Positions 2,239 through 49,430 of a stretch of 64,000 nucleotides of DNA are shown piece by piece; within the stretch, counting starts at the first letter, position 1; each line of letters starts with the position of its first letter. The position numbers were made by a program, and so were the translations under genes. The notes below the pieces were generated by a model that was given only the letters and a program-made list of their open reading frames with translations, had not been told where the DNA came from and did no database searches. The stretch is from the NCBI GenBank assembly GCA_902796805.1, contig CADBQG010000003.1, positions 21,067 through 85,066 of the forward strand, in the 5' to 3' direction. This stretch comes from an uncultured Bacteroidota bacterium. GTDB taxonomy: Bacteria > Bacteroidota > Bacteroidia > Bacteroidales > WCHB1-69.

Positions 2239-2285
2239 CGAACTTGAAATAAATGTATTTTTTTAATAACTTAAAACAAAGCAAG

Positions 2286-3527
2286 ATGAAAAAATTTTAC
2301 ATGTTATTTGTAGCAGTGCTCTTCGCGGTTACAGCAAGCGCACAGGTTGCACTTCAGAATCCCGTTTCAAACGCCAGGATTCCTTATAAGCCGGCTGACA
2401 AGCAGAAGGCTGTTTTCGCTCCTCGCGCCACCACTTCCGGCGAGATTTGGATCAATTATCCTGTATGGGACGCAATCTATTTCGGAGCCGACACTGTTGC
2501 CGACGGCATGCAAGTCTATTTGCATGGAGACACCGTAGGCCTTATCTCGTATACAGACGGATATCACACTGCGTGGATTCACTCAATCGCGCAAGTTTAT
2601 GACTTCAGATCAACTTTCTTTGACGAAATCATGGACGAGGGTGAGATGTCTTTCAACGCTACGGAGAAGCTCAACCTTGACTCGATAATGATTTATGGAC
2701 TATACATTCGTGACGATGACTACACAGGCGTTGACACTCTTATTGTAGGTTTCATGGCATTGCCGGAAAACACTCCTCTGTGGACCTTCGGCCAAAACTA
2801 TCCCAACACATGTCATGTTTCTTCTTATTACGACATGAACACAGGCGTGCAGACTGGAGCCACACACTTCTTCAAGATACCTCTGACAGAAGCTGAAGAG
2901 TCTGAGCCAGGCGACCAGCCTGGATTCTATAAGTATTCAATCCACTACATTGACGCTGGTATCAAAGACATCACAAACAAGATTTGGCATGTGGCTTTCA
3001 CATTCAAATCAGGCCAGAACTTTGCTGAAAACGACACAATGAAGTCGCGCTTCACCACGTATTTCGACCTCAGTGCCGACCCTGGTTATTTCATTACTCT
3101 TGACAACCCTAACAGATGTTCAAACTTGAGCCATGGTATGGTCAGCGCTACTTTCACCAACTCTGGCTACAGTGAAGACTACTATCCATGCTTCGCGCTC
3201 GGCGATGCCGCTCCAGGCGAAGCTGCGTTCTCAGACAACCTCCGCATCAAGGTTTCATGCACAGAGTGCGCTGTTGTCAACGTTCCTGAAATCGAGAAGA
3301 ACAACCCGACAATCTATCCTAACCCTGCAACCGACAAGTTCACTGTTAACCTCGGCAGCAACGAGACCGCAACAGTTCAACTCTACAACATCGTTGGCCA
3401 GCAGGTTTACAGCGGCGTTGTTACAGGCTCTGAGGACATCAAGACCAACCACCTCAACAGCGGCGTTTATATGCTCAAGATAAACCAGAACGGCAAAGTT
3501 TACACATCAAAGGTTGTTGTGAAATAA
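2286..3527 (+). CDS. Secreted protein with T9SS type A sorting domain
   Basis: A 413-residue exported protein. I use the ATG at 2286 because it begins a clean signal peptide (MKKFYMLFVAVLFAVTASAQ). An upstream in-frame ATG at 2253 would only add an odd 11-residue tail. Residues ~25-325 form a beta-rich region with no motif I recognise. The last ~75 residues are a T9SS type A C-terminal sorting domain: NPTIYPNPATDKFTVNL, then VQLYNIVGQQVYSG, then LNSGVYMLKINQNGKVYTSK and the end VVVK. T9SS cargo crosses the outer membrane and is attached to the surface or released. The gene is monocistronic, with its own promoter and a strong terminator at 3548. The function of the N-terminal part is unknown. 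Confidence 0.85.
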   Translation: MKKFYMLFVAVLFAVTASAQVALQNPVSNARIPYKPADKQKAVFAPRATTSGEIWINYPVWDAIYFGADTVADGMQVYLHGDTVGLISYTDGYHTAWIHSIAQVYDFRSTFFDEIMDEGEMSFNATEKLNLDSIMIYGLYIRDDDYTGVDTLIVGFMALPENTPLWTFGQNYPNTCHVSSYYDMNTGVQTGATHFFKIPLTEAEESEPGDQPGFYKYSIHYIDAGIKDITNKIWHVAFTFKSGQNFAENDTMKSRFTTYFDLSADPGYFITLDNPNRCSNLSHGMVSATFTNSGYSEDYYPCFALGDAAPGEAAFSDNLRIKVSCTECAVVNVPEIEKNNPTIYPNPATDKFTVNLGSNETATVQLYNIVGQQVYSGVVTGSEDIKTNHLNSGVYMLKINQNGKVYTSKVVVK

Positions 3528-24632: not shown

Positions 24633-24640
24633 TAACTTTG
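24633..24640 (+). promoter_or_regulatory. -7 box (TAACTTTG) of the TBDR / giant protein / PorV-like operon
   Basis: A TAnnTTTG match in a very A/T-rich 186-bp gap (24502-24687), 47 bp before the ATG at 24688. It is the only promoter-like element seen for the three genes that run to the terminator at 34452. Nothing resembling a cobalamin or other riboswitch is visible in the gap. Confidence 0.6.
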
Positions 24641-24687
24641 CAGGCTTGTTATAATGTGGAATAGAATTTAATGTTTAATATAAATTA

Positions 24688-27600
24688 ATGGCTATGATTA
24701 AAAAATTACTCGCAACTTTAGGAGTAATCATCCTGTTCGCCGGTGCGGCATTCTCACAGAGCCAGATTAAGGGTAAAGTGATAGACCAGACGAAATCACC
24801 TTTGGCATACACAAGGGTGTTTTTGAAGGTCGGAGACCGCGTTGTAAACATGGCTACGGCCGACGCGAACGGTGATTACACATTGTTCAACATCGATGCC
24901 GGAACTTACGATTTGGAGGCGGACGCTCAGATGACCTGCAAGAAGTCTCAGAAGAAGACAGGCGTGAACGTGCCGTCGAACCAGATTATGTTCATTGATT
25001 TCGAAATCGACTGCACATCAGATGTTGCTGAAGTCGTGATCACCTACGAGCCTCCGGTGTTCTCTGCCGACAACACTACGTCTTCAAGCCGTTTGTCGGG
25101 CGACAATGTGCGCAACACCCCCGGTCGTTCCGTGGAGTCAGCCCTCGCGAACTTGGAGGGTGTGTCGTCTGTGGACGGCAACATGTCGTCGGTGCGCGGT
25201 AACCGTTCCGACGGACAGCAGACCATTGTGGATGGTATGCGCGTGCGTGGCGGTACGGGTGTCTCGATGTCTTCCATCGAGGAGGTGCAGTTGATACAAG
25301 GCGGTGTGCCGGCCGAGTACGGCGACGGTACCTCTTTCACCGTCATCACCACAAAGCAGGCTCCCAAGGACTTCCACGGCTCATTCGAGTTGCGCGGCTC
25401 AATCGACGGATACAACAACTTCCTCGCGGCCGCTTCTGTTTCCGGTCCCCTGTTGAAGGGCAAGACCAAAAACGACCCCACAAGGATCGGATTCCTGTTC
25501 AGCGGTGAGGTTTCCTATACACACGACTACTCGCCTCTCCGCGGCGGCTACTGGGTTGCCAACGACGATGTGCTCGAGTCTATCATCGCGAACCCGATAC
25601 GCTACAGCCAGTCGGAATTCGGCGCTCACTACCTTGAGGCCGCATACCTCACAAGCGACGCCTTCCACAAAGAGCGCGTGCGCAAGAACGCCGGCTCATG
25701 GGACTATCTCGGACAGTTAAAGCTCGACTTCATCCTCGGAAAGAGACATAACATGAAACTCTCCCTCAGCGGCTCATACGAGTACATCAAAGGCAAGTCG
25801 TGGGGTATGACTTCGGCCCTCTTCAACAATTTCAACAACCCGATATCAACCTCGAGCATGGCCCGTGCGAACGCCCGCTTCAACCACCGCGTGATTACCG
25901 ACACTACTGGAAACGCGGTTCTCAAGAACCTCATGTATGACATCAACGTGTCGTACACACGTATCGACGGCCGCTCCTACGACGCTAACCACAAGGACAA
26001 CCTGTTCGAATACGGCTACCTCGGCCAGTTTACAACCAACAAAGTGAGGAGCTACTCGTACAACGACGAGCTCACAATCAATATAGACAGTGTGCCTGCG
26101 ATATTCTACAACGCCTACCAGTTCAACGGCTGGTGGGATTCTGTAGTAACATTCAGAATCCACCCCAACTACAACTGCAACCCCGTGCTCGCGCAATACA
26201 CACTCAACTTCCTCGACCGTTTCCCGACAGAGACCATTTATGACTACTACGGAACAACTATGATTCCATACGACCTTAACCTCTACCAGCAGTTCGGCGC
26301 CTTGAGGAACGGTGACAGCCCCGAGTCGATCTACTCGATGTACACATCGCCCGGCGTTGTACTCTCCGGCTACAGCAAGTCGTCGTCTGACCAGTTGGGC
26401 GTGAAGGCCAGTGTCTCGATGAACATCAAGGATCATGAGCTGAAGTTCGGTTACGACTTCGAGAAGCTGACATACCGCGGCTGGGGAATCTCCCCCACAG
26501 CACTGTGGCAGCTCATGCGCAACGAGACCAACTACCATATATCAGAGCTTGACCTCGACAACCCCATCATAAGCGACAACGGCGAAAACATCTATATTGA
26601 CTATAACCGTTTGAACAAACTCGAGGACCAGACAGTTTTCGACAGAAACCTTCGTACAGCCCTTGGAATGGATCCCAACGGTTCAGAATGGATTGACATC
26701 GACAACCTGACGCCGAACACTTTCGATGTGAGCATGTTCTCAGCTGAAGAGCTCCTGCTCGGAACCTCTTCCGGCGCCGGCTCACTTGTAAGCTACTATG
26801 GTTATGACTACACCGGAAAGAAGTACAACAAGAAGACAACAATCGACGACTTCTTCAACGGTGTTGACAAGAACGGACAGAAGACCTACCACATAGGCGC
26901 CTACGAGCCTATCTACATGGCATTCTACATCCAGGACAAGTTTGCCATAAACTCATTGCTTTTCAACATCGGTCTCCGTGTTGACCGTTTCGACGCGAAC
27001 CAGCCGGTGCTGAAGGACCCGTATCTTTTCCGCGAAGCCTATACCGTGGGCCAGCTCCGCAACATCAACAAGGATCTCAACTTTGTTGAGAACGCGACCA
27101 GCGACTGGGTTGTTTATTGTGCCGGAGAAAACGTTTACATGAGCGAGGCTGACATTGCCGCCGACGGTTTCACCGAAAATTCAATCATAGGTTACCGTTA
27201 CGGCGACACTTGGTACGACGCGAAAGGTAACATCGTTACAGACCCTGAGGCAGAGCTTTCCATGATCATGAGCCCTGTGCTCAAGAACGAGGTTAACCCT
27301 GAAGCCATCACAAAAGTTGAGGCCGCCGCTTTCACGGACTACAAGGCCCAATGGTCGGTGATGCCGCGTATCTCCTTCTCTTTTCCTGTAAGCGACAACT
27401 CATTGTTCTACGCACACTACAACATCATAACCTCACGTCCAACAAACCTGCAGATTTCGCCTGTTGACTACATGTTCATCTCAAGGCGTAACTCCGCAAG
27501 CAACATTGTGTACAACCCGAGCATGAAGCCGCAGCAGAGTATCGACTACGAAATCGGTTTCCGTCAGAAGATCGGTGCGCGTTCAGCCATCAGCATCAGC

Positions 27601-28473
27601 GCATACTATTCCGAAAAGCGTAACCAGATTCAGGCGTACCGCTTCTCGGGCGCATATCCGAACACTTACTATTCGTTCCAGAACATAGACTTCGGAACAG
27701 TTCAAGGTTTCACATTCTCATACAAGATGAACAGGACCAAGAATATGACACTTTCTGCCAACTACACACTCCAGTTCGCGAAGGGTACCGGTTCAAGCTC
27801 GCAGTCGCAGCTGTCGATTATCGCTTCCGGCCAGCCGAACCTCAGAACCCTCACCAACCTTTCATTCGACCAGCGTCACAGAATCGGTGTCAACTTCGAC
27901 TATCGTTTCGAGAGCGGCCTGAACTACGACGGCCCGAAGTCTGAGAAAGTGAAGATTGTTGACGGCAAGGAGACTGTTAAGACGATAGAGTGGCTTGCCA
28001 ACACCGGATTCTCGTTCTTGTTCTCGGCTGCTTCAGGAACACCGTACACACGTTCCAGCACGCCTTATTCAACCATCGTTTCGGGAACACGTTCAACACT
28101 TTCCGGTTCTATAAACGGCTCGAACCTTCCTTGGCAGTACCAGGCCGACCTGCGTATAGACAAGACCTTCATGTTCAACTTCAACAAGAACAAGAAGGAC
28201 GAGAACGGCAAGGCGAAGGCAGCGAAGATGGGCTATGTTACTGTTTACATTGACATCCAGAACCTCTTCAACTTCAAGAACGTGATTTCAGTTTACGACT
28301 ACACAGGCAACCCCGACGACGACGGTTACCTCTCGGCTGCCACTTACCAGCAGCAGATCAACTCCCAGATCTATGTTCCCGCATACATAAACTACTACCA
28401 GATGAGGATGCAGACACCTTATAACTACAGCCGTCCATTCCGTGCAAGTTTGGGTGTCCAGTTCGGATTTTAA
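24688..28473 (+). CDS. TonB-dependent receptor with N-terminal carboxypeptidase-like domain, no SusD partner
   Basis: A 1261-residue outer-membrane receptor. Signal peptide to about residue 24 (LFAGAAFSQ). A carboxypeptidase-regulatory-like domain follows (~26-110; IKGKVIDQTKSPLAYTRVFL), then a TonB-box-like stretch EVVITYEPPVF. The plug domain (~125-245) has RNTPGRSVESALANLEGV, VRGNRSDGQQTIVDGMRVRG and the end QGGVPAEYGDGTSFTVIT. The remainder is a large barrel ending FRASLGVQFGF. The plug wording differs from SusC-type receptors and no SusD gene follows. TonB receptors use inner-membrane energy to move a ligand or to gate the barrel. A second ATG at 24694 is an equally possible start. It is the first gene of a three-gene operon. 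Confidence 0.92.
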   Translation: MAMIKKLLATLGVIILFAGAAFSQSQIKGKVIDQTKSPLAYTRVFLKVGDRVVNMATADANGDYTLFNIDAGTYDLEADAQMTCKKSQKKTGVNVPSNQIMFIDFEIDCTSDVAEVVITYEPPVFSADNTTSSSRLSGDNVRNTPGRSVESALANLEGVSSVDGNMSSVRGNRSDGQQTIVDGMRVRGGTGVSMSSIEEVQLIQGGVPAEYGDGTSFTVITTKQAPKDFHGSFELRGSIDGYNNFLAAASVSGPLLKGKTKNDPTRIGFLFSGEVSYTHDYSPLRGGYWVANDDVLESIIANPIRYSQSEFGAHYLEAAYLTSDAFHKERVRKNAGSWDYLGQLKLDFILGKRHNMKLSLSGSYEYIKGKSWGMTSALFNNFNNPISTSSMARANARFNHRVITDTTGNAVLKNLMYDINVSYTRIDGRSYDANHKDNLFEYGYLGQFTTNKVRSYSYNDELTINIDSVPAIFYNAYQFNGWWDSVVTFRIHPNYNCNPVLAQYTLNFLDRFPTETIYDYYGTTMIPYDLNLYQQFGALRNGDSPESIYSMYTSPGVVLSGYSKSSSDQLGVKASVSMNIKDHELKFGYDFEKLTYRGWGISPTALWQLMRNETNYHISELDLDNPIISDNGENIYIDYNRLNKLEDQTVFDRNLRTALGMDPNGSEWIDIDNLTPNTFDVSMFSAEELLLGTSSGAGSLVSYYGYDYTGKKYNKKTTIDDFFNGVDKNGQKTYHIGAYEPIYMAFYIQDKFAINSLLFNIGLRVDRFDANQPVLKDPYLFREAYTVGQLRNINKDLNFVENATSDWVVYCAGENVYMSEADIAADGFTENSIIGYRYGDTWYDAKGNIVTDPEAELSMIMSPVLKNEVNPEAITKVEAAAFTDYKAQWSVMPRISFSFPVSDNSLFYAHYNIITSRPTNLQISPVDYMFISRRNSASNIVYNPSMKPQQSIDYEIGFRQKIGARSAISISAYYSEKRNQIQAYRFSGAYPNTYYSFQNIDFGTVQGFTFSYKMNRTKNMTLSANYTLQFAKGTGSSSQSQLSIIASGQPNLRTLTNLSFDQRHRIGVNFDYRFESGLNYDGPKSEKVKIVDGKETVKTIEWLANTGFSFLFSAASGTPYTRSSTPYSTIVSGTRSTLSGSINGSNLPWQYQADLRIDKTFMFNFNKNKKDENGKAKAAKMGYVTVYIDIQNLFNFKNVISVYDYTGNPDDDGYLSAATYQQQINSQIYVPAYINYYQMRMQTPYNYSRPFRASLGVQFGF

Positions 28474-28498
28474 TCAATAGAAAAAAAATAAAAGATAT

Positions 28499-31400
28499 AT
28501 GAAAAGTATTAAACAAATTTTCTGCTTGACACTTCTGACGGTGCTGCTGGCCTCCGGCTCGCTGCACGCCGAAAAGGTAAAGGGAGTGGTTAAACGTTCT
28601 TCCTCATCGAAGCCCGCAGAATCAGCTACTTGTCTTCCGGCAACGAGTTCCAACGAGCTTACGGTGAACAATGTGCGCGCCTACATAGAGACAGGCGGTA
28701 CGATGTGGTTCAAGGAAGTTTCAGAATACGAGGTTCCCAAAGGATCTGGAAAGACTTCCATGTTCTCATCAGGTCTTTGGATCGGCGGTCTGGACGTGAA
28801 CGGCCAGCTCAAGCTCGCTGCTGTGCGTTTCAGGCAGTTGGGTGACGACTACTGGACTGGCCCGCTCAAGATCACCGGCGCCAGCACCACGCAGTCCACA
28901 TGTATCAAATTCGACAAGCTTTTCAAGATCACGCGTGCCGAGGTTGACGACCACATTTCGAGTTACAACACCTCAGGATACGTTATGCCGTCGAGCATCG
29001 CCAACTGGCCAGCCCACGGCGACGAGGGCTATTCATACTATCTCGCTCCTTTCAAGGATGTGAATGAGAACGGTGTGTATGACCCCGAAAACGGCGACTA
29101 TCCGTACTATGATGTGAACAACGACCTCTGTCCGTGGACGGAGCAGAACATCGCGTTGGCCGCGAAGCACGAGCTGCCGAGAACCCCTGAGGACATCCTC
29201 TACTACGGCGACAACTGGCAGAACTCCAACGGTATGATCTATTCAGACCATGTGCTCAAAGGCGACGAGACACTTTTCTGGATATTCAACGACAACGCCG
29301 GTCCGCACACCGAATCGAAAGGCCCCGCCATCGGCCTTGAAATCCGCGGCCAGGCTTTTGGTTTTTCTACAAACGACGAGTTGAACAACATGACTTTCTA
29401 CTCATACGAAATCATCAACCGTTCTACTTACACCCTTACCAACACCTATTTCTCACAGTGGACTGACCCTGACCTCGGTTTTGCAGAGGACGACTTTGTA
29501 GGCTGTGACGTTTCAAGAGGTTTGGGATACTGCTACAACGGCTCCAACGTTGACGGTTCCGGCCAAAGCTGGGCTTACGGAGATCAGCCGCCTGCAGTTG
29601 GTGTGGACTTCTTCCAGGGACCGTATATGGACCCGGATGGTCGCGACAACCCGAAATTCTACCAGGACAGCGCGATTTATGAAGACTATTGTAAGAAATT
29701 CGTCGGCAACACCGTTAACCCGGCCGACCAGATGGCCATCAACGGTGTGAACTTCGGCGACAGCATCGTTGACAACGAGCGTTTCGGTATGAGAAGGTTC
29801 GTGTTCCACAACAACTCGAGCGGTCCTGTAGGCGACCCGAGCGTTGCTTTTGAGTACTATAACCTGTTGCAGGGTATATGGAAGGACAACACCAAGATGC
29901 GTTTCGGCGGCAACGCCCATGCGTCTAACGGTGGTAACGGCCCCGCCTGCGACTTCATGTTCCCGGGTCTTTCGGATCCGTGTAACTGGGGAACCCAGGG
30001 CGAGACTCCTCCTGCAATCCCGGGTAACCAGGGATGGACTGAACAGGCTGTGGGCAACGCGCCCGCCGACCGTCGTATAATGCAGTCAGCCGGCCCGTTC
30101 ACCTTGAAACCCGGTTCCGTCAACTACATCACAGTGGGTATTCCATGGGCACGTGCCGCTCAGGGTGGCGCCATGGCTTCTGTAGAGCTCCTCAAACGCG
30201 CCGACGACAAGTGCCAGCTTCTGTTCGAGAACTGCTTCAAGACACTCGACGGCCCCGACGCTCCGGATGTAACTATCCGTGAGCTCGAGAACGAGTTGAT
30301 ACTCTACATCTCGAACAACAACCCGAGAAGAAACAACTATCATGAGACATATTCTGAGATCGACCCGAGAATCCCGAGAACTGTTGAGTCAACAAAGCTT
30401 GTTGAACTTCAGGATTCAGTGATGGCCTACACAGCCGACGCACGCGATACAGTCATCTATACAACAAAGTATGAAACTGTAACAACCATTGACACTCTTT
30501 CAACAAAAGACCGTTCATACGTTTTCGAAGGTTATCAGATTTACCAATTGAAGAGCGCTTCAGTAAGTGTTACCGACCTTGACGACGCCAACAAGGCACG
30601 TCTCGTTGCGCAGTGCGACATCCAAAACGACGCCAAGCAGCTTATCAACTGGATTTACAACGACGCTCTCGGCACCTCAGTTGCCACAGAGATGGTTAAC
30701 GGTGCAAATGCCGGCATATCCCACTCATTCAGAATCACAGAAGACAAGTTTGCAACCGGTACTAACCCGCAGCTTGTGAACCATAAGGAGTACTACTTCT
30801 TAGTTATTGCCTACGGTTACAACCAATACAAGAAATTCAGTCTTGACGCCGACAACCTCGACGGCCAGACGACAACCTATCTTGCAGGTCGCCGCAACAT
30901 CGAAGTTGCAGTGGGTATTCCTCACAAGCCGGTTGAGAGCATCCTCAATTCAAAATACGGCGACGTGCCTATGATTACCCGTATCGAAGGTCAGGGCAAC
31001 GGCGGCTTCTACCTCGATATGACCGACGAGTCGCGCGAGAAGATTCTTGCAAACAATGTTTACAACAACATCCAGTACAAGAACAACTACGGTCCGCTTA
31101 ACATCCAGGTTGTTGACCCGTTGAAGGTTAAGCCTTACGACTACACCATCAAGTTCCTCCCCAACGACGTTTCAGAGGATGTAAACGACAGCACAATGTG
31201 GCAGTTGACAATCTCCGACGAGGTAACCGACGAGGAGCTGAATGAGATGGGGCTCGAGAGGACAATAACAGCCGCTATGCCTATCAGCATGACTAACGAA
31301 CAGTTGTTCCTCGACTTGGGTATCTCAATATCAATCAAGAACGCCAACTTCAAGGTTTACCAGGCCAACCTTGACGAGCACATCATGAGCGGTGACGGTT

Positions 31401-33208
31401 ACACGTTCGCTAACACTTCATACTATGCGCAGCCCGACATGCTCGGCTCGGAGATTACGTTCTCTGACGACATTCCATGGCTCACCGGCTTGGTTGACAG
31501 GGAGGGTGACTATCCTGCAAACTGGATACGTTCAGGCCAGCAAGTTTCGCTTCAGCACTGGCAGGGAAGCGGCGGTGTACAGGAGGGTGCTTCCGCTGAC
31601 TACAATCTGTGGCGTTCAGAAGACGCGTTCAACCTCTTCACATATTCTCCTCCTGGAAAGTCTGCTGAAGTAGTTCGTGGTTTCATGGATCCCAATCAGC
31701 AGTTCGAGAACATGGTTTACGGTACTTGGGCTCCTTATCCTCTTTCTTCCCCGTATGACGGAGGTCCGAAGGCTAAGTATCTTGTTGAAGACAATACAAG
31801 GTATCAGAATAACCCGACGTCGGAGCCTCTCAACAACTACTACGATTTCAGGCAAGTTGCCGGCATACCGAACCGTGGCGGTTACAACCAGACTCTAACG
31901 AACCTCTATTCAGTGGACATAGTGTTGACTCCCGACCAGAGCCTCTGGACACGCGCCTTGGTTCTCGAGTCAGGTTCTTCAAAGTCAACGGATGATTATT
32001 CTGTAACCCAGAACTTCAACGGACAGACTTACAAGAACATACGTCATGAACCTAAGAATTGTCCTTCAGTGGGCAAGGACGGTCGGCCTGACAACAGCGG
32101 AACAACAGGTTTCGGATGGTTCCCGGGATATGCAATCAATGTTGAAACAGGCGAGAGGCTGAATATTATGTTCGCCGAGAACTCAACCGACGAGTTGAAC
32201 AATGGTAACGACATGATATTCAACCCTACAGATGTCTACGCGTATGCCCGCGACCCAAGGGCTGACACTTTCCTGTTGGACGAAGAAGGCAATAAGATTG
32301 AACTCTCCGAAACCCAGTTCGATAACTTACGCGATTCATATGGTTTGGTTTATGGTGAGCCTTCAAACGGCGGACGTCACTATGTATATATCCTTGGAAG
32401 CTCTGGCAACACTGCCAACACTTTCTATACATATTCATCGAGAAAGCGTAACTACAATGATTCAGAATCAAGGGTGTCGGCTCAGGGAGTACAGCATGGC
32501 GGCAGGTTCACCGGCAGCAATGGTGTTGAATACCCTTACTATGAGTGCGGTCCATACGATGAGTGCACTTGGGTGTGCGAGAAGTTCAAAACTTTGGGCA
32601 ACGAGTACGCCTCAAATCAGCGAAAGTCACGCAAGATGCAGATTTTCAACAATGTGATGTACACCAGCATTCCTATGCCTACGCAGATGAACAGAGACAG
32701 GTGGCTTGCCTCTGACGCGACCATCAAGTTGCGCGTGTCTCGTCCTTACATGAGATATTCATCGAGGTGGTATGACAACGTGTCGCAGGCTCCATACGCC
32801 GACCAGAACGACGGCTATCCGATGTACAGCTTCACAACCAAGAACGTTTCTCCCGAGAAGATCGAGAAGGCAGAGGTTGTTGACAACATGTTGCAGGAAA
32901 TCAACATTGTTCCGAACCCGTACTACGGATTCTCGACCTACGAGCACAACGCTCTTCAGAACTACATCCGCATTGTCAACCTTCCTACGAGATGTACAAT
33001 CTCGATTTACACGGTCAACGGTACGTTGATCAGGACACTGACAAAGGGTACAGACGCCCAGTCGTTTGTTGAATGGGATTTGAAGAACCATGCCAACATT
33101 CCGATTGCCAGCGGTGTTTACATCATACATGTGAAGGCCGACGGTTACGGCGAGCGTACTCTGAGATTCTTCTGCAATATGCGTCCTACTGACTTGAATG
33201 GTTTCTAA
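28499..33208 (+). CDS. Giant exported protein (1569 aa) with T9SS-like C-terminal domain
   Basis: A signal peptide (MKSIKQIFCLTLLTVLLASGSLHA) is followed by ~1440 residues rich in Asn, Asp, Tyr and Gly with no catalytic motif I recognise. Near residue 60-125 is NNVRAYIETGGTMWF and SGLWIGGLDVNGQLKLAA. At 187-200 is DVNENGVYDPENGD, a dockerin/EF-hand-like calcium loop. The last ~100 residues resemble a T9SS type A sorting domain (NIVPNPYYGF, CTISIYTVNGTLIRTL, IASGVYIIHVKADGYG). Unlike standard ones, it continues past the last strand with CNMRPTDLNGF. It is probably surface-exposed or part of an outer-membrane complex. It begins 25 bp after the TonB receptor with an A-rich leader and precedes the PorV-like gene by 27 bp. 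Function unknown. Confidence 0.85.
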   Translation: MKSIKQIFCLTLLTVLLASGSLHAEKVKGVVKRSSSSKPAESATCLPATSSNELTVNNVRAYIETGGTMWFKEVSEYEVPKGSGKTSMFSSGLWIGGLDVNGQLKLAAVRFRQLGDDYWTGPLKITGASTTQSTCIKFDKLFKITRAEVDDHISSYNTSGYVMPSSIANWPAHGDEGYSYYLAPFKDVNENGVYDPENGDYPYYDVNNDLCPWTEQNIALAAKHELPRTPEDILYYGDNWQNSNGMIYSDHVLKGDETLFWIFNDNAGPHTESKGPAIGLEIRGQAFGFSTNDELNNMTFYSYEIINRSTYTLTNTYFSQWTDPDLGFAEDDFVGCDVSRGLGYCYNGSNVDGSGQSWAYGDQPPAVGVDFFQGPYMDPDGRDNPKFYQDSAIYEDYCKKFVGNTVNPADQMAINGVNFGDSIVDNERFGMRRFVFHNNSSGPVGDPSVAFEYYNLLQGIWKDNTKMRFGGNAHASNGGNGPACDFMFPGLSDPCNWGTQGETPPAIPGNQGWTEQAVGNAPADRRIMQSAGPFTLKPGSVNYITVGIPWARAAQGGAMASVELLKRADDKCQLLFENCFKTLDGPDAPDVTIRELENELILYISNNNPRRNNYHETYSEIDPRIPRTVESTKLVELQDSVMAYTADARDTVIYTTKYETVTTIDTLSTKDRSYVFEGYQIYQLKSASVSVTDLDDANKARLVAQCDIQNDAKQLINWIYNDALGTSVATEMVNGANAGISHSFRITEDKFATGTNPQLVNHKEYYFLVIAYGYNQYKKFSLDADNLDGQTTTYLAGRRNIEVAVGIPHKPVESILNSKYGDVPMITRIEGQGNGGFYLDMTDESREKILANNVYNNIQYKNNYGPLNIQVVDPLKVKPYDYTIKFLPNDVSEDVNDSTMWQLTISDEVTDEELNEMGLERTITAAMPISMTNEQLFLDLGISISIKNANFKVYQANLDEHIMSGDGYTFANTSYYAQPDMLGSEITFSDDIPWLTGLVDREGDYPANWIRSGQQVSLQHWQGSGGVQEGASADYNLWRSEDAFNLFTYSPPGKSAEVVRGFMDPNQQFENMVYGTWAPYPLSSPYDGGPKAKYLVEDNTRYQNNPTSEPLNNYYDFRQVAGIPNRGGYNQTLTNLYSVDIVLTPDQSLWTRALVLESGSSKSTDDYSVTQNFNGQTYKNIRHEPKNCPSVGKDGRPDNSGTTGFGWFPGYAINVETGERLNIMFAENSTDELNNGNDMIFNPTDVYAYARDPRADTFLLDEEGNKIELSETQFDNLRDSYGLVYGEPSNGGRHYVYILGSSGNTANTFYTYSSRKRNYNDSESRVSAQGVQHGGRFTGSNGVEYPYYECGPYDECTWVCEKFKTLGNEYASNQRKSRKMQIFNNVMYTSIPMPTQMNRDRWLASDATIKLRVSRPYMRYSSRWYDNVSQAPYADQNDGYPMYSFTTKNVSPEKIEKAEVVDNMLQEINIVPNPYYGFSTYEHNALQNYIRIVNLPTRCTISIYTVNGTLIRTLTKGTDAQSFVEWDLKNHANIPIASGVYIIHVKADGYGERTLRFFCNMRPTDLNGF

Positions 33209-33235
33209 AATTATTAATCAAAAAAATCAGACAAT

Positions 33236-34417
33236 ATGAAAAATACATATAAAACGTTAATAATTTGCACCATCATAGCTCTGTTGTCTGCAAGTGCCAT
33301 GCCGGCATTTGCAGGTAACAGGGACCGTTCCGGTCAGGCCGGTGCATCTCACTTGCTTATCGACCCATGGGCTCGTACAAGCGGTTTGGCCGGTGCAGGT
33401 GTTGCCGAAGTACGCGGTTTGGAATCAATATTTTCAAACGTTGCAGGTCTCACGAGTGTCAGGAAAACGGAGCTTGCATTCAACAGGACACAATATCTTG
33501 TGGGTTCCAATTGCGGTATCAGCATCAATTCCATGGCGATTGCACAGAAATTGGGAAAGAAGAAGGATTTCGGTGTTATAGGCGTATCTTTCTTTTCGCA
33601 GAATTTCGGAAATGTAACAATCACCACTCCCGACCAGCCTGAAGGCGGTCTTGGTACGTTCAGCCCGAGACTTAACTACATTGGTCTTCACTATGCCAAG
33701 TCGTTCAACAACTTCATCAAGGGAGGTGTCTCGTTGAAGATTATCACTGAGAGTATCTCCGACTCGAGGGCAACCGGCTTTGCAATTGATGCAGGTGTTC
33801 AGTACATCACAGGCAAGTTCGAGAACTTCAAGATTGGTGTTACATTGAAGAACATCGGTCTTCCGATGCGTTACAAGGGCGACGGTCTTTCAATCCGCGC
33901 GCAGATCCCAAGCCAGGAGTTCGAGCAGACCCTTGAAATGCGCTCGGCAGAATTCGAGATGCCGTCGTTGCTCTCAATCGGTATATCCTACGACCTTCTG
34001 TTCTTCGGAGGCGAATATGCCGACATGACGAGGGATGAACTCGCAGAAGAGGGTTTGACACGCGACGACGCGATGCACAGAATCACCTTCGCAGGAGCTT
34101 TCACGGCTAACTCCTACACCCGCGACGTCTTCTCCTTGGGCATAGAATACGGTTTCAGGAATCTGTTCATGATCCGTGCTGGCTACGGACTCGAGAGCGT
34201 TGGCAAGGGAGCAGCCGAGATGAACGAGAAAGCTGCGATACTCTTCAACAGCGACTCGTTCTTTGCAGGCCCCGCAGTAGGTGCCACAGCCGTTGTGCCT
34301 TTGACAAAGGAGCGCAAGAACCACACCGTAGGTCCGAGAATCTATTTCGACTATGGCTACAGGTTCACGAACAAGTGGAGAGGCAACCATTACATGGGTA
34401 TAAAGGTTACTTTGTAA
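33236..34417 (+). CDS. PorV/PorQ-family outer-membrane barrel protein
   Basis: A 393-residue protein with a signal peptide (ending MPAFAG). The PorV/UPF0164 opening is HLLIDPWARTSGLAGAGVAEVRGLESIFSNVAG, equivalent to the family's 'A-R-x-x-x-x-G-A-x-x-A...N-P-A-G' layout. Alternating barrel strands and a closing strand (HYMGIKVTL) follow. PorV of the T9SS is a FadL-like barrel that accepts cargo from the translocon and hands it to the attachment complex. This copy is tied by operon to a TonB receptor and a giant T9SS-like protein rather than to por genes, so a dedicated role is inferred. A terminator follows at 34452. Confidence 0.85.
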   Translation: MKNTYKTLIICTIIALLSASAMPAFAGNRDRSGQAGASHLLIDPWARTSGLAGAGVAEVRGLESIFSNVAGLTSVRKTELAFNRTQYLVGSNCGISINSMAIAQKLGKKKDFGVIGVSFFSQNFGNVTITTPDQPEGGLGTFSPRLNYIGLHYAKSFNNFIKGGVSLKIITESISDSRATGFAIDAGVQYITGKFENFKIGVTLKNIGLPMRYKGDGLSIRAQIPSQEFEQTLEMRSAEFEMPSLLSIGISYDLLFFGGEYADMTRDELAEEGLTRDDAMHRITFAGAFTANSYTRDVFSLGIEYGFRNLFMIRAGYGLESVGKGAAEMNEKAAILFNSDSFFAGPAVGATAVVPLTKERKNHTVGPRIYFDYGYRFTNKWRGNHYMGIKVTL

Positions 34418-34451
34418 GAAACTATAATTCTTAAATATTTTAGTCTAATTT

Positions 34452-34482
34452 AATAGAAGAGACTTTCACAGTCTCTTCTATT
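34452..34482. terminator. Perfect 13-bp hairpin ending the three-gene operon
   Basis: AATAGAAGAGACT (34452-34464) and AGTCTCTTCTATT (34470-34482) are perfect complements around a 5-nt loop. The tract after the stem is TTTGTG, a weak U-run, so termination may be partial. It lies between the PorV-like gene and greA. Confidence 0.8.
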
Positions 34483-46532: not shown

Positions 46533-49430
46533 CTATTTCAGTATGACTTTGCGGGTCTGGCTGCAGTTGCCGGAAGTGAGGCGCAGCATGTAGATGCCTG
46601 CCGGAAGGACTCCGCGATTGATTCGCAGCGGGGTTCCGTCGGCATCCATGGTCTCGCGGCGGAGCGTGCGGCCGCTGATGTCGAGAAGTTCAACGCTCAC
46701 CGCGCCGCTCACGTTCTTCACGCTTACCGCAAAATAGTCGGTTGCGGGATTCGGAGATATTGTAACCGCCGCACTGCCGAAACTCTCTATCCCGACGGTT
46801 TCGGTCAGCACCAATGTTATCACGCTGTCGCATCCGTTCACAGTCTCGAGGTTTTGCACATAAGTGCCTGCCCCGCCCACGTTGAATCCGTGATTGTTGT
46901 AAGTCTCGCCAGGAGCCACACTGTCGTTGATTGTTATGTTGTAAGTAGGATTCACGGTTATGACGATAGTGTAGGTTGTGTCTCCTGAAACCACTGTGTG
47001 CGTGCCTTCTGCTGAATAGGTGTTGCCGTTGAACTCATAGGTCTCGCCGTTGCAAATCGAGGCGTCGAGGGTTACAAACACCGGGTCGGGAGTTGTTCCA
47101 CCTGTAACTGTGAGAACAAGGGTTATGACGCTGTCGCAGCCGTTCACGGTCTCGAGATACTGGTGATATGTGCCGCCTTGGCTCTCGTTGAAACCGTGTC
47201 CGGTGTATGTTTCGCCCTCGTTTATCGTGGCCTCGTAGGTCATCGAGAAAGTGGGGTTGACAGTAAGATTCAGTGTGATTACAGTATCGCCTTCATTTTC
47301 GTGTGAGACGATTATCTGGTATGTCCCGCCGATGCTGAAGGTCTCGCCGCCTATCACCACACTGCTGCCTTCACATATCGCTGTGTCTATGTTTACAGGG
47401 ATGTTTTCATACTCGTGTGTTCCGTCTGAAACAACGATGTTGTCGATGGCCATGTTGTATCCGTCTTCGTAGTAAGCTTTGAAGATGATGTACCCGAACT
47501 CTTCCTGGGCGGGGATTGACACGGTTGCGCTCTTCCATCCGAAAGATTCTGAATATCCGTTCACGGTGGTGAGAAGGCTTGCGTTCTCAACGGAGCCGTC
47601 GCCGCTGACATAGATCTCGATTTTTTCAGACATCGGCTTCCACCACATCTCTTCATTGTCGGGATATTCCTCGAACAAGTCGAAGTCGAAGATTTCCTCC
47701 TGTCCGCATGTGTGATACTGGAACGTCAGGGTCTTTTCCTGACTGAGGTCTATCTGTGGAGAGGTGAGAGTTCCCCAGTTTCCGGCGGTGAACTGCCATG
47801 CGTTGAACTGCATCATGTTGTTTCCGGAGTAAGGCTGGTAGGGGGTGTTGTAGAAGTCGGCGTGGCCGCCTGCTGAAACCAACGCCCAGTTCTGTCCGGC
47901 AGCCGACGAGTTCAGTGTCCAGCAGGATACGCCGTTCTCAAAGCTTTCACTCCAAGGAAACTCGGTGATTGCCTCGCATGATGTTGTGAATGTGTAAGTT
48001 GCACTTGCCGCCGAGACCTCATCTTCGCCGCATACCGAAACAATGTAGAATTCATAAGTGGTTCCGGCGGGAAGGCTCTCGAAAATGTTGTAGTCCTCTT
48101 CGGCAATCTCTATCTCCTCGAAATCGGTGTCCTCCTCAGACTTGTAGTACAGTTTGGCGCCTTGCGCGTTGTTGGTGTATGTCCAGGAAACTGTTACATA
48201 GTCGCCGTCAACGTCGGCTACTATGTCCACGGGAGGCGTGCAGAAGGCAGAAGCCTCAACGTTTATGTCGTCGATAAAGCAGCTGGGGTACAACGATGAG
48301 GAATATTCCCGGCTCAGCAGCAATGCGATGTAGCGTCCGTCGCCGGTGTATGCGGCAAAGTTTATCTCCTTGTTCTCAAATCCGAAAGAAGTACCTTCGC
48401 GGGAAACGGTCTGCACGAGCTCGAAAGTGGAGGGATTGTCAGGGTTTGTCATCACGCCTACTGCAACAACCGTGGTGTTCTGCTGCGCGGTTTTGAATCT
48501 GAAACTCATCGTCAGGTTCTGTATTGAATATCCGTCGGCCAGTCTCGGCAGGATGGCGTATTCGGCGTCGGTGTCCATCAGCGTGAAGAACAGGCTCTGG
48601 TCGTAGTTGTCGGCGGCACTGCCCGGGCCCACGCACGGAGTGTAGTAGCCGAGGTATTCGTTGTATTCTTCGGAAATACGTGTCCAGCATTCAGGCATTG
48701 CGGCGTATGCCTCATAGCTTTGGAAATCATCACTGTACGGTATGTTCAGAAAGCAGTCGTGGGTGGTGTTGCCTCCAAATGTGAAGAAAATGTCGGGACG
48801 TTCGGTTGTAGAGCTGTGGAAAGAGCCTGAGAGGCCGGACATCACCTCGTGAATGTCGAACATCTCGTCATCTTGCATCATCACCCAGCAGTGGTCCTCG
48901 TCGCTATCGTTTGTGTAGAGGGCTATCTCGTAGTCGGTGCCGCCGTAATACTCGTTGGACATCACCCCTTCCACAAGCACTATCAGGTTGCCGCCGGTAT
49001 AAGCGAAAGCCTGGCTGAATGGAAATTCATGCCAATAGTAGTCGAAAGGCGTTATGTTGTCGAGGGAACCGTCGTACACCAAAGTCGCGGAGTTGGTAAT
49101 GTCGTACCACGACTGCGACAGGTCGAGAGTCTCATCGGACGTCTCTATCAGCCATATCTTCGCGGACGAGTACTCGAAGTCGTAGCCGTTGCCCGGGGCG
49201 ATGCTGTACGACAGCGAGGTGATGTTTCCGGCCTCGTGGTTTATCTCCCCGGCCTCGTACAGACAGGCGGATATGTGGAATCCGTAGGAGCCGGGCAGCA
49301 CGCTGTAAGGCGAATAGCCTATGTAGTCGCCTGTGATGGTGTCGGAAGTGTTTTGCGCAAAAAGTGCGAAAAGCGGCATCATCAGCGCCGCAATCAGCAC
49401 GAACTTTCTAATAGGTAGTGTTTTATTCAT
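46533..49430 (-). CDS. T9SS-sorted adhesin-like surface protein with repeats
   Basis: A 965-residue protein with a signal peptide (IAALMMPLFALFAQ). In order: a beta-sandwich with GYSPYSVLPGSYGFH (to ~220); a choice-of-anchor J/cleaved-adhesin-like domain (IPYSDDFQSYEAYAAMPECW, ~235-395); a fibronectin type III-like stretch (CTPPVDIVADVDGDYVTVSW, ~395-490); and a second anchor-like domain (FPWSESFENGVSCWTLNS). Then come short repeats with two nearly identical units (HGFN...GTY, LETVNGCDSVITLVLT). It ends in a T9SS type A sorting domain (ISPNPATDYFAVSV, GIYMLRLTSGNCSQTRKVILK). It is probably a cell-surface adhesin or scaffold. Long promoter leader (~88 nt), terminator downstream. Confidence 0.87.
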   Translation of the reverse strand: MNKTLPIRKFVLIAALMMPLFALFAQNTSDTITGDYIGYSPYSVLPGSYGFHISACLYEAGEINHEAGNITSLSYSIAPGNGYDFEYSSAKIWLIETSDETLDLSQSWYDITNSATLVYDGSLDNITPFDYYWHEFPFSQAFAYTGGNLIVLVEGVMSNEYYGGTDYEIALYTNDSDEDHCWVMMQDDEMFDIHEVMSGLSGSFHSSTTERPDIFFTFGGNTTHDCFLNIPYSDDFQSYEAYAAMPECWTRISEEYNEYLGYYTPCVGPGSAADNYDQSLFFTLMDTDAEYAILPRLADGYSIQNLTMSFRFKTAQQNTTVVAVGVMTNPDNPSTFELVQTVSREGTSFGFENKEINFAAYTGDGRYIALLLSREYSSSLYPSCFIDDINVEASAFCTPPVDIVADVDGDYVTVSWTYTNNAQGAKLYYKSEEDTDFEEIEIAEEDYNIFESLPAGTTYEFYIVSVCGEDEVSAASATYTFTTSCEAITEFPWSESFENGVSCWTLNSSAAGQNWALVSAGGHADFYNTPYQPYSGNNMMQFNAWQFTAGNWGTLTSPQIDLSQEKTLTFQYHTCGQEEIFDFDLFEEYPDNEEMWWKPMSEKIEIYVSGDGSVENASLLTTVNGYSESFGWKSATVSIPAQEEFGYIIFKAYYEDGYNMAIDNIVVSDGTHEYENIPVNIDTAICEGSSVVIGGETFSIGGTYQIIVSHENEGDTVITLNLTVNPTFSMTYEATINEGETYTGHGFNESQGGTYHQYLETVNGCDSVITLVLTVTGGTTPDPVFVTLDASICNGETYEFNGNTYSAEGTHTVVSGDTTYTIVITVNPTYNITINDSVAPGETYNNHGFNVGGAGTYVQNLETVNGCDSVITLVLTETVGIESFGSAAVTISPNPATDYFAVSVKNVSGAVSVELLDISGRTLRRETMDADGTPLRINRGVLPAGIYMLRLTSGNCSQTRKVILK

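Follow-up and report, generated by a model that had tools for sequence, protein, structure and literature searches.

A TonB-dependent receptor, a protein of 1569 residues and a PorV-type outer-membrane barrel are encoded one after another in the draft genome of an uncultured Bacteroidota bacterium. The locus raises the question of what would tie an uptake receptor to two proteins reminiscent of the type IX secretion system (T9SS). The stretch of DNA analyzed, hereafter the window, comprises 64,000 nucleotides (G000:C3:21067-85066) of the 2.1-Mb draft genome. An earlier note on this DNA had proposed a dedicated surface-export or surface-assembly unit in which the receptor energizes or gates the outer-membrane step. 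The present analysis favors a different division of labor. With a probability of about 50%, the trio is a T9SS-built analogue of SusCD in which the giant protein, held by the barrel, works at the cell surface together with an uptake receptor. It may thus represent a so far undescribed parallel to the nutrient importers of the SusCD type. No description of such a trio was found in the titles and abstract openings of the open-licence literature searched.

Composition of the three-gene unit

The three genes are located on the forward strand and are separated by 25 bp (receptor to giant) and 27 bp (giant to barrel), the order and spacing that the earlier note had given. Signal-peptide-like N-termini of the trio proteins were assessed by eye.

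24688..28473, + strand: TonB-dependent receptor gene, 1261 residues, signal-like N-terminus by eye
28499..33208, + strand: giant protein gene, 1569 residues, signal-like N-terminus by eye
32807..33205, + strand: residues 1437-1569 of the giant, its C-terminal region, with PNP, SGVY and the conserved tail MRPTDLNGF
33236..34417, + strand: PorV/PorQ-family outer-membrane barrel gene, 393 residues

The receptor comprises a CarboxypepD_reg domain (residues 26-99), a Plug domain (residues 128-215) and a TonB barrel, all above their Pfam cut-offs (26.9 versus 23.9 for PF07715 and 55.2 versus 27 for PF00593), which identifies it as a TonB-dependent receptor. The SusC and SusD models yielded zero matches among the three trio proteins, placing the trio outside SusCD as these models define it, and a domain scan of the ten neighbouring open reading frames (ORFs) in the window detected no SusD family member. 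The receptor is thus SusD-less, as had been claimed.

The product of the third gene scores 122.6 bits with the NCBIfam PorV/PorQ family model NF033709 (cut-off 90) and therefore belongs to this family. Its scores with the equivalog models of PorV, PorQ and PorV2 (58.5, 64.8 and 31 bits) lie below the respective cut-offs of 250, 220 and 325, and the genome has elsewhere one gene each for canonical PorV, PorQ and PorV2. The barrel is hence a PorV paralogue distinct from these three, in agreement with the earlier description. A BamG-like relative of the barrel, below its cut-off, is also carried by the genome. Canonical porV is located on the same contig about 4.5 kb ahead of the window (G000:C3:15512-16594, L238; 477 bits), and the gene ahead of it, whose sequence has an end resembling a T9SS C-terminal domain (CTD), is presumably porU.

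In the predicted model the barrel has 14 strands, counting two short ones as loop, consistent with a FadL-type barrel. The model of the giant C-terminus fused to the barrel has a mean predicted local distance difference test score (pLDDT) of 78 and a predicted template modeling score (pTM) of 0.54, with the barrel mostly at 76-95 and one loop falling to 41. The best PDB matches of the fused model, followed by FadL proteins, are 8gl6_F and 6h3i_F, with template modeling (TM) scores of 0.66 and 0.67 by target length. Both entries are T9SS translocon structures, and by length and fold the matched chains are presumably their PorV. This search used the CTD-barrel fusion and was dominated by the barrel.

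Conservation and duplication of the unit

The giant was matched in 43 of 60 genomes (its own included), among them 35 of 35 other genomes of the same genus. At the level of the class, 245 of 295 genomes and 126 of 156 genera gave a match. The receptor-giant-barrel order is present in 29 of 29 same-genus loci (L010-L038). In L068-L187, 111 of the 122 giant ORFs are flanked by co-oriented receptor and barrel genes in this order. Repeats and assemblies from the same genus are counted among these 122 ORFs. Distinct giants number 120, and 109 have the trio; once the 29 genus loci are set aside, the trio is present for 101 of 112. Set A2 consisted of the window and 54 of 63 nonredundant in-frame pairs, and set A3 of the window and 89 of 120 rows.

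The receptor is more than 1 kb from the giant in two of the 111 trios (L099 and L122). Among the 11 exceptions, some are contig ends or have one interrupted gene (L096, L118, L122, L144, L163 and L165), others are partnerless giants (L069, the second copy in L082, L086 and L107), and L072 has no receptor upstream while its downstream sequence ends too early to tell. The L107 relative (L107:6560-14512), from a genome of the window's genus, is 2650 residues long and has neither receptor nor barrel. Of 110 class loci, 96 have a greA-like gene after the unit and 90 a HIT-like gene; these were named by eye in the class loci and confirmed by Pfam in the window. Because these neighbours are shared, the window-type trio of the class is taken to be one inherited locus.

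In the phylum sample, which gave up to 33 first-look candidates per genome, the giant profile found matches in 65 of 118 genomes. Of these 65, 58 belong to other classes, and several of the matches cover the C-terminal domain only. Twenty other-class loci, one each from 20 of the 58 matching genomes, were selected for strong N- and C-terminal matches. The three genes are consecutive in 19 of the 20 (17 at first, L218 and L223 with rebuilt profiles), the exception being L235. The earlier note had held that homologues occurring mostly independently of each other would tell against its proposal, but the trio stays together in 101 of 112 and 19 of 20 cases. An operon of convenience is likewise unlikely, given a trio conserved in 29 of 29, 111 of 122 and 19 of 20.

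Two genomes carry the unit repeatedly. G423 contains ten trios, nine within the gap limit and one in L250, where the called ORFs share 83 nt. Six trios are present in G403. The giant, barrel and receptor distances correlate with r of 0.73-0.88 over nine trios of G423 (at most 2 of 5000 permutations) and with r of 0.92-0.98 over the six trios of G403 (16-60 of 5000 permutations). Since the distances of the three proteins correlate, the copies were made as units.

These distances bear on an alternative in which the giant is a T9SS-delivered adhesin, enzyme or coat protein with a PorV-type anchor. The receptor would then be an importer that is co-transcribed with the giant but only loosely related to it, and no transport complex would form. 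The resemblance of the CTD and its PorV-family partner to PorU-PorV and PorZ-PorQ would suit such an anchored protein. However, the receptor stays beside the giant as strictly as the barrel does, and the receptor-giant distances correlate with r of 0.86 and 0.98, versus 0.73 and 0.92 for barrel and giant. This alternative is considered unlikely.

The giant protein and its C-terminal domain

No Pfam family exceeds its cut-off in the giant. Its N-terminal and middle region is large and β-rich, and the model of residues 1-1200 has a pLDDT of 83 and a pTM of 0.76. The top PDB matches of this region, all weak (TM at most 0.22), are mostly GH15-, GH94-, GH116- and GH161-type enzymes, which share a supersandwich domain; this is used as a hint only. 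Residues 775-884 of the giant at L248:4581-8342, as scanned, contain a CHRD domain over its cut-off. The giant's N-terminal core also occurs outside trios, in proteins about 530-950 residues long, three of which are encoded in tandem in L257 (G403:C87).

The C-terminus of the giant scores 20.9 bits with TIGR04183 (cut-off 23). The giant is absent from the 57 PF18962 (Por_Secre_tail) matches of its genome, and PF18962 is absent from its own Pfam hits, so that neither model scores it as a type A CTD. Four of four other-class giants scanned likewise had no PF18962 match at E 0.01. Because the matches are sub-threshold, sequence models by themselves make a weak case for the label T9SS-like, which the motifs and the predicted fold strengthen. 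A PNP motif lies within the last 140 residues in 158 of 158 giants, and the predicted model of the C-terminus has seven strands of at least three residues; an account of CTDs describes them with seven strands (PMC11285876).

The SGxY motif is found in 128 of 139 class members, with 31-36 residues from it to the chain end. F is the last residue in 120 of 139 and an RPxDLxxF-like tail is present in 113 of 139, about ten conserved residues following the seven-stranded domain in class members. Ordinary CTDs of the same genome have 21-25 residues after GxY in seven cases (eight loci tried), and the class giants fall outside this type A distance of about 21-25 residues. For other-class giants, the distance from SGxY to the end is 31-35 residues in 16 of 19 and the RPxDLxxF pattern occurs in 0 of 19; in G403 and G423, 13 of the 16 giants have the type-A-like ending IK. 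Since the other-class and G403/G423 ends differ, the long tail is common but dispensable for the trio. The sorting-domain-like end proposed in the earlier note thus gains some strength from the PNP and SGVY motifs and the seven predicted strands, but not from TIGR04183, where it falls below the cut-off, or from PF18962, where it has no match.

A plain type A cargo fits the giant only partly, in view of the model scores and the end distance. The giant is not PorU, because it has no peptidase domain and canonical porV with the presumed porU end is located elsewhere on the contig. Two ordinary type A CTD proteins are encoded in the window at 2253-3527 and 46533-49430, as found in the genome-wide PF18962 search.

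Association with the type IX secretion system

SprA was sought with TIGR04189 in the same phylum, class and order samples as the giant; only a few candidates were scored per genome, and genome-level details refer to the matches listed. In the phylum sample sprA is present in 91 of 118 genomes, and the giant in 65 of the 91 sprA-positive versus 0 of the 27 sprA-negative genomes. In the class sample sprA is present in 286 of 295 genomes, and the giant in 243 of 286 versus 2 of 9 (Fisher p 8e-5; 30 giant-negative genomes were inferred from two lists). Of the two class exceptions, G118 has a canonical PorV at 500 bits and G242 is 56% complete, with no PorV over the cut-off. The giant is therefore nested in sprA-bearing genomes, to which it is nearly restricted. 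It is ruled out as a core part of the T9SS, being unmatched in 43 of 286 sprA-positive genomes of the class and 73 of 140 of the order.

The motifs, the predicted fold and this co-distribution make the giant a likely T9SS cargo. Given its signal-like N-terminus and its T9SS-type CTD, the giant would be expected to leave the cell through the SprA machinery. The idea that the unit is self-contained, dedicated and linked to the T9SS is thus supported, with the trio kept in 101 of 112 and 19 of 20 cases, a T9SS-like CTD and co-distribution with sprA.

The same evidence bears on the proposal that the TonB receptor energizes or gates the secretion or surface assembly of the giant. Oar-type receptors consist of CarboxypepD_reg, Plug and barrel, and the trio receptor has the same make-up. 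Oar of Myxococcus is required for PopC secretion (PMC6434023), a precedent for receptor-driven export. Unlike the case of Oar, which serves PopC secretion, the partner of the trio receptor apparently has its own T9SS-type signal. The signal-like N-terminus, the CTD and the co-distribution with sprA imply that export needs no receptor, and the carbohydrate genes beside paralogues (below) fit uptake. The energizing or gating role is thus not upheld; receptor-driven export appears improbable and is less likely than the T9SS-built uptake unit.

Genes adjoining the paralogues

The genes beside paralogues, rather than those beside the window copy, suggest an uptake role. Six of the 16 trios of G403 and G423 directly adjoin a carbohydrate gene, and the genes found beside trios include the following.

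L244 and L249: GH9 beside the trio
L247: GHL10 beside the trio
L251: GH94 beside the trio
L254: LacI beside the trio
L256: RpiR beside the trio

A protein bearing a carbohydrate-binding module (CBM) adjoins the trio of L234 and a solute-binding protein that of L237, and CBM9 proteins are encoded upstream of the trios in L244, L249 and L251, on the opposite side from the carbohydrate gene. GH9 genes number only three in G403 and two in G423, and one per genome lies directly downstream of a trio. For the two genomes this placement has an estimated chance of about 0.004 and 0.005, on the assumption of 0.95 genes per kb and for a family picked after being seen. The 50 flanking proteins of other-class copies that were scanned (48 of 53 distinct ORFs and two others) include no SusD family member.

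The LacI- and RpiR-type regulators beside single paralogues would agree with a surface sensor, in which the receptor relays to a regulator that the giant has bound something, while hardly any net transport takes place. However, regulators stand beside only 2 of the 16 G403/G423 trios, and no sigma or anti-sigma family was detected among the 50 paralogue-flanking proteins or the ten window neighbours scanned. We consider a sensor very improbable.

Other neighbours of the paralogues are diverse. A GWxTD-domain protein is encoded downstream of the barrel gene in L219, L225, L228, L230 and L236 (below the cut-off in L228), and a protein combining multihaem cytochrome c and TPR is found in this position in three other-class genomes (L218, L220 and L223). 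Further neighbours are M14 and M16 peptidases, peptidyl-prolyl isomerases, DUF4397 proteins and unnamed CTD proteins. Small proteins, lipoprotein-like by eye, are encoded upstream of the trio receptor in L225, L230 and L248, and small DUF4397-matching proteins upstream in L231 and L232 (below the cut-off in L232) and downstream in L222. The small proteins beside other-class trios are a possible fourth component.

Flanking signals and neighbours in the window

Two candidate signals flank the unit in the window.

24633..24640, + strand: TAACTTTG, which fits the -7 type box of Bacteroidota, about 50 bp ahead of the receptor gene
34452..34482, + strand: perfect 13-bp inverted repeat with a 5-nt loop, probable terminator

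The single promoter box of the earlier note is present as TAACTTTG, which was matched to TAnnTTTG, the Bacteroidota -7 type consensus, but the frequency of such matches is within chance. TANNTTTG occurs 37 times in the window, where 29.75 occurrences would be expected and a count this high arises in 10 of 100 shuffles; since chance explains this frequency, the box is no evidence by itself. No -33 box was seen by eye ahead of the receptor gene, and a promoter scan was uninformative. The perfect repeat that had been called a terminator is real and folds with a z of -4.0 (1 of 200 shuffles folds as well), but its T tail is weak and a terminator scan did not list it. It is probably the terminator of the unit. 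Upstream of the unit are S9 peptidase and LptF/LptG-type genes, and downstream greA, HIT and beta-helix genes (Pfam).

Comparison with known systems

In PorU-PorV and PorZ-PorQ, a PorV-family barrel is described as holding a T9SS cargo whose CTD is not removed, and cognate PorV-like barrels have been suggested to protect CTDs from cleavage (PMC10202324). Judged from sequence, the trio likewise appears to pair a T9SS-type CTD protein with a PorV-family barrel, and the presumed porU precedes porV in this genome as the giant precedes the barrel. By analogy with these two pairs, the giant is probably held on the cell by its cognate barrel. Unlike them, the giant shows no PorU peptidase domain in the Pfam scan, the barrel is neither PorV, PorQ nor PorV2, and the unit includes a TonB receptor.

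In PG1035-PorP and SprB-SprF, a dedicated FadL-type barrel resembling PorP/SprF is reported to bind one T9SS surface protein with a type B CTD (PMC9143113). The trio would similarly offer a dedicated FadL-type barrel for one surface protein, whereas its barrel is of PorV/PorQ type, its CTD is type-A-like (PNP, SGVY) and a TonB receptor is present. With SusCD the trio shares a TonB receptor with a dedicated surface protein, several copies in some genomes, and some copies near glycan-degrading genes. In contrast to SusCD, it has no SusD lipoprotein or SusC match, its surface protein is an apparent T9SS cargo, and the barrel is a third partner.

Proposed function and its implications

In the mechanism proposed for a T9SS-built uptake unit, the giant would cross the inner membrane via Sec and the outer membrane via the SprA channel, guided by its CTD. 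The trio barrel would take the CTD and retain it without cleavage, in the way that PorU is kept by PorV and PorZ by PorQ, with the extra C-terminal tail of class members as a candidate specificity element. The tethered giant would serve as extracellular partner or lid of the trio's TonB-dependent receptor, which would import its ligand using TonB. Judging from paralogue neighbours, oligosaccharides are the probable ligand of some paralogues.

Several observations weigh against this proposal. Couplings between CTD and barrel (143 of 159 pairs kept) are not clearly above those of shuffled partners, the best score being 0.655 versus a maximum of 0.885 in 20 shuffles and the tenth 0.519 versus a shuffled maximum of 0.481. 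The PDB fold search with giant residues 1-1200 returned only weak matches, with TM at most 0.22 in the best 50. Whole-unit copying alone would also give congruent distances within a genome. The order sample shows a weak association with sprA (giant in 67 of 140 sprA-positive versus 2 of 9 sprA-negative genomes, Fisher p 0.18), the two exceptions not being full giants (a C-terminal match in an 847-aa frame in G507 and short relatives in 530-aa frames in G541). The 27 sprA-negative phylum genomes comprise at least 19 of one family, G099 and seven others, and because at least 19 of 27 belong to one family they are not independent. Ten of the 16 G403/G423 trios have no directly adjoining carbohydrate gene; other neighbours include peptidases and GWxTD proteins. 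No gene for carbohydrate uptake adjoins the window copy, and in view of its own neighbours, with greA and HIT next to most class loci, its ligand may differ.

A broader form of the proposal, held tentatively and at somewhat less than even odds, is that the trio is a third type of surface importer driven by TonB and spread across the phylum, with the receptor, a T9SS-delivered binding protein and a PorV-family anchor in one complex. It would be ancestral to the Bacteroidota and SusCD-like in its expansion in some lineages, and its CTD subtype would be read by the cognate barrel rather than by the PorU sortase.

If true, T9SS secretion and TonB-dependent uptake, two separate fields, would be joined, and PorV paralogues would gain a role outside the secretion machine. 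The trio would provide a test of the published idea that cognate PorV-like barrels shield CTDs from cleavage (PMC10202324). It would also explain many Bacteroidota proteins of 1000-1600 residues that the family models used leave nameless.

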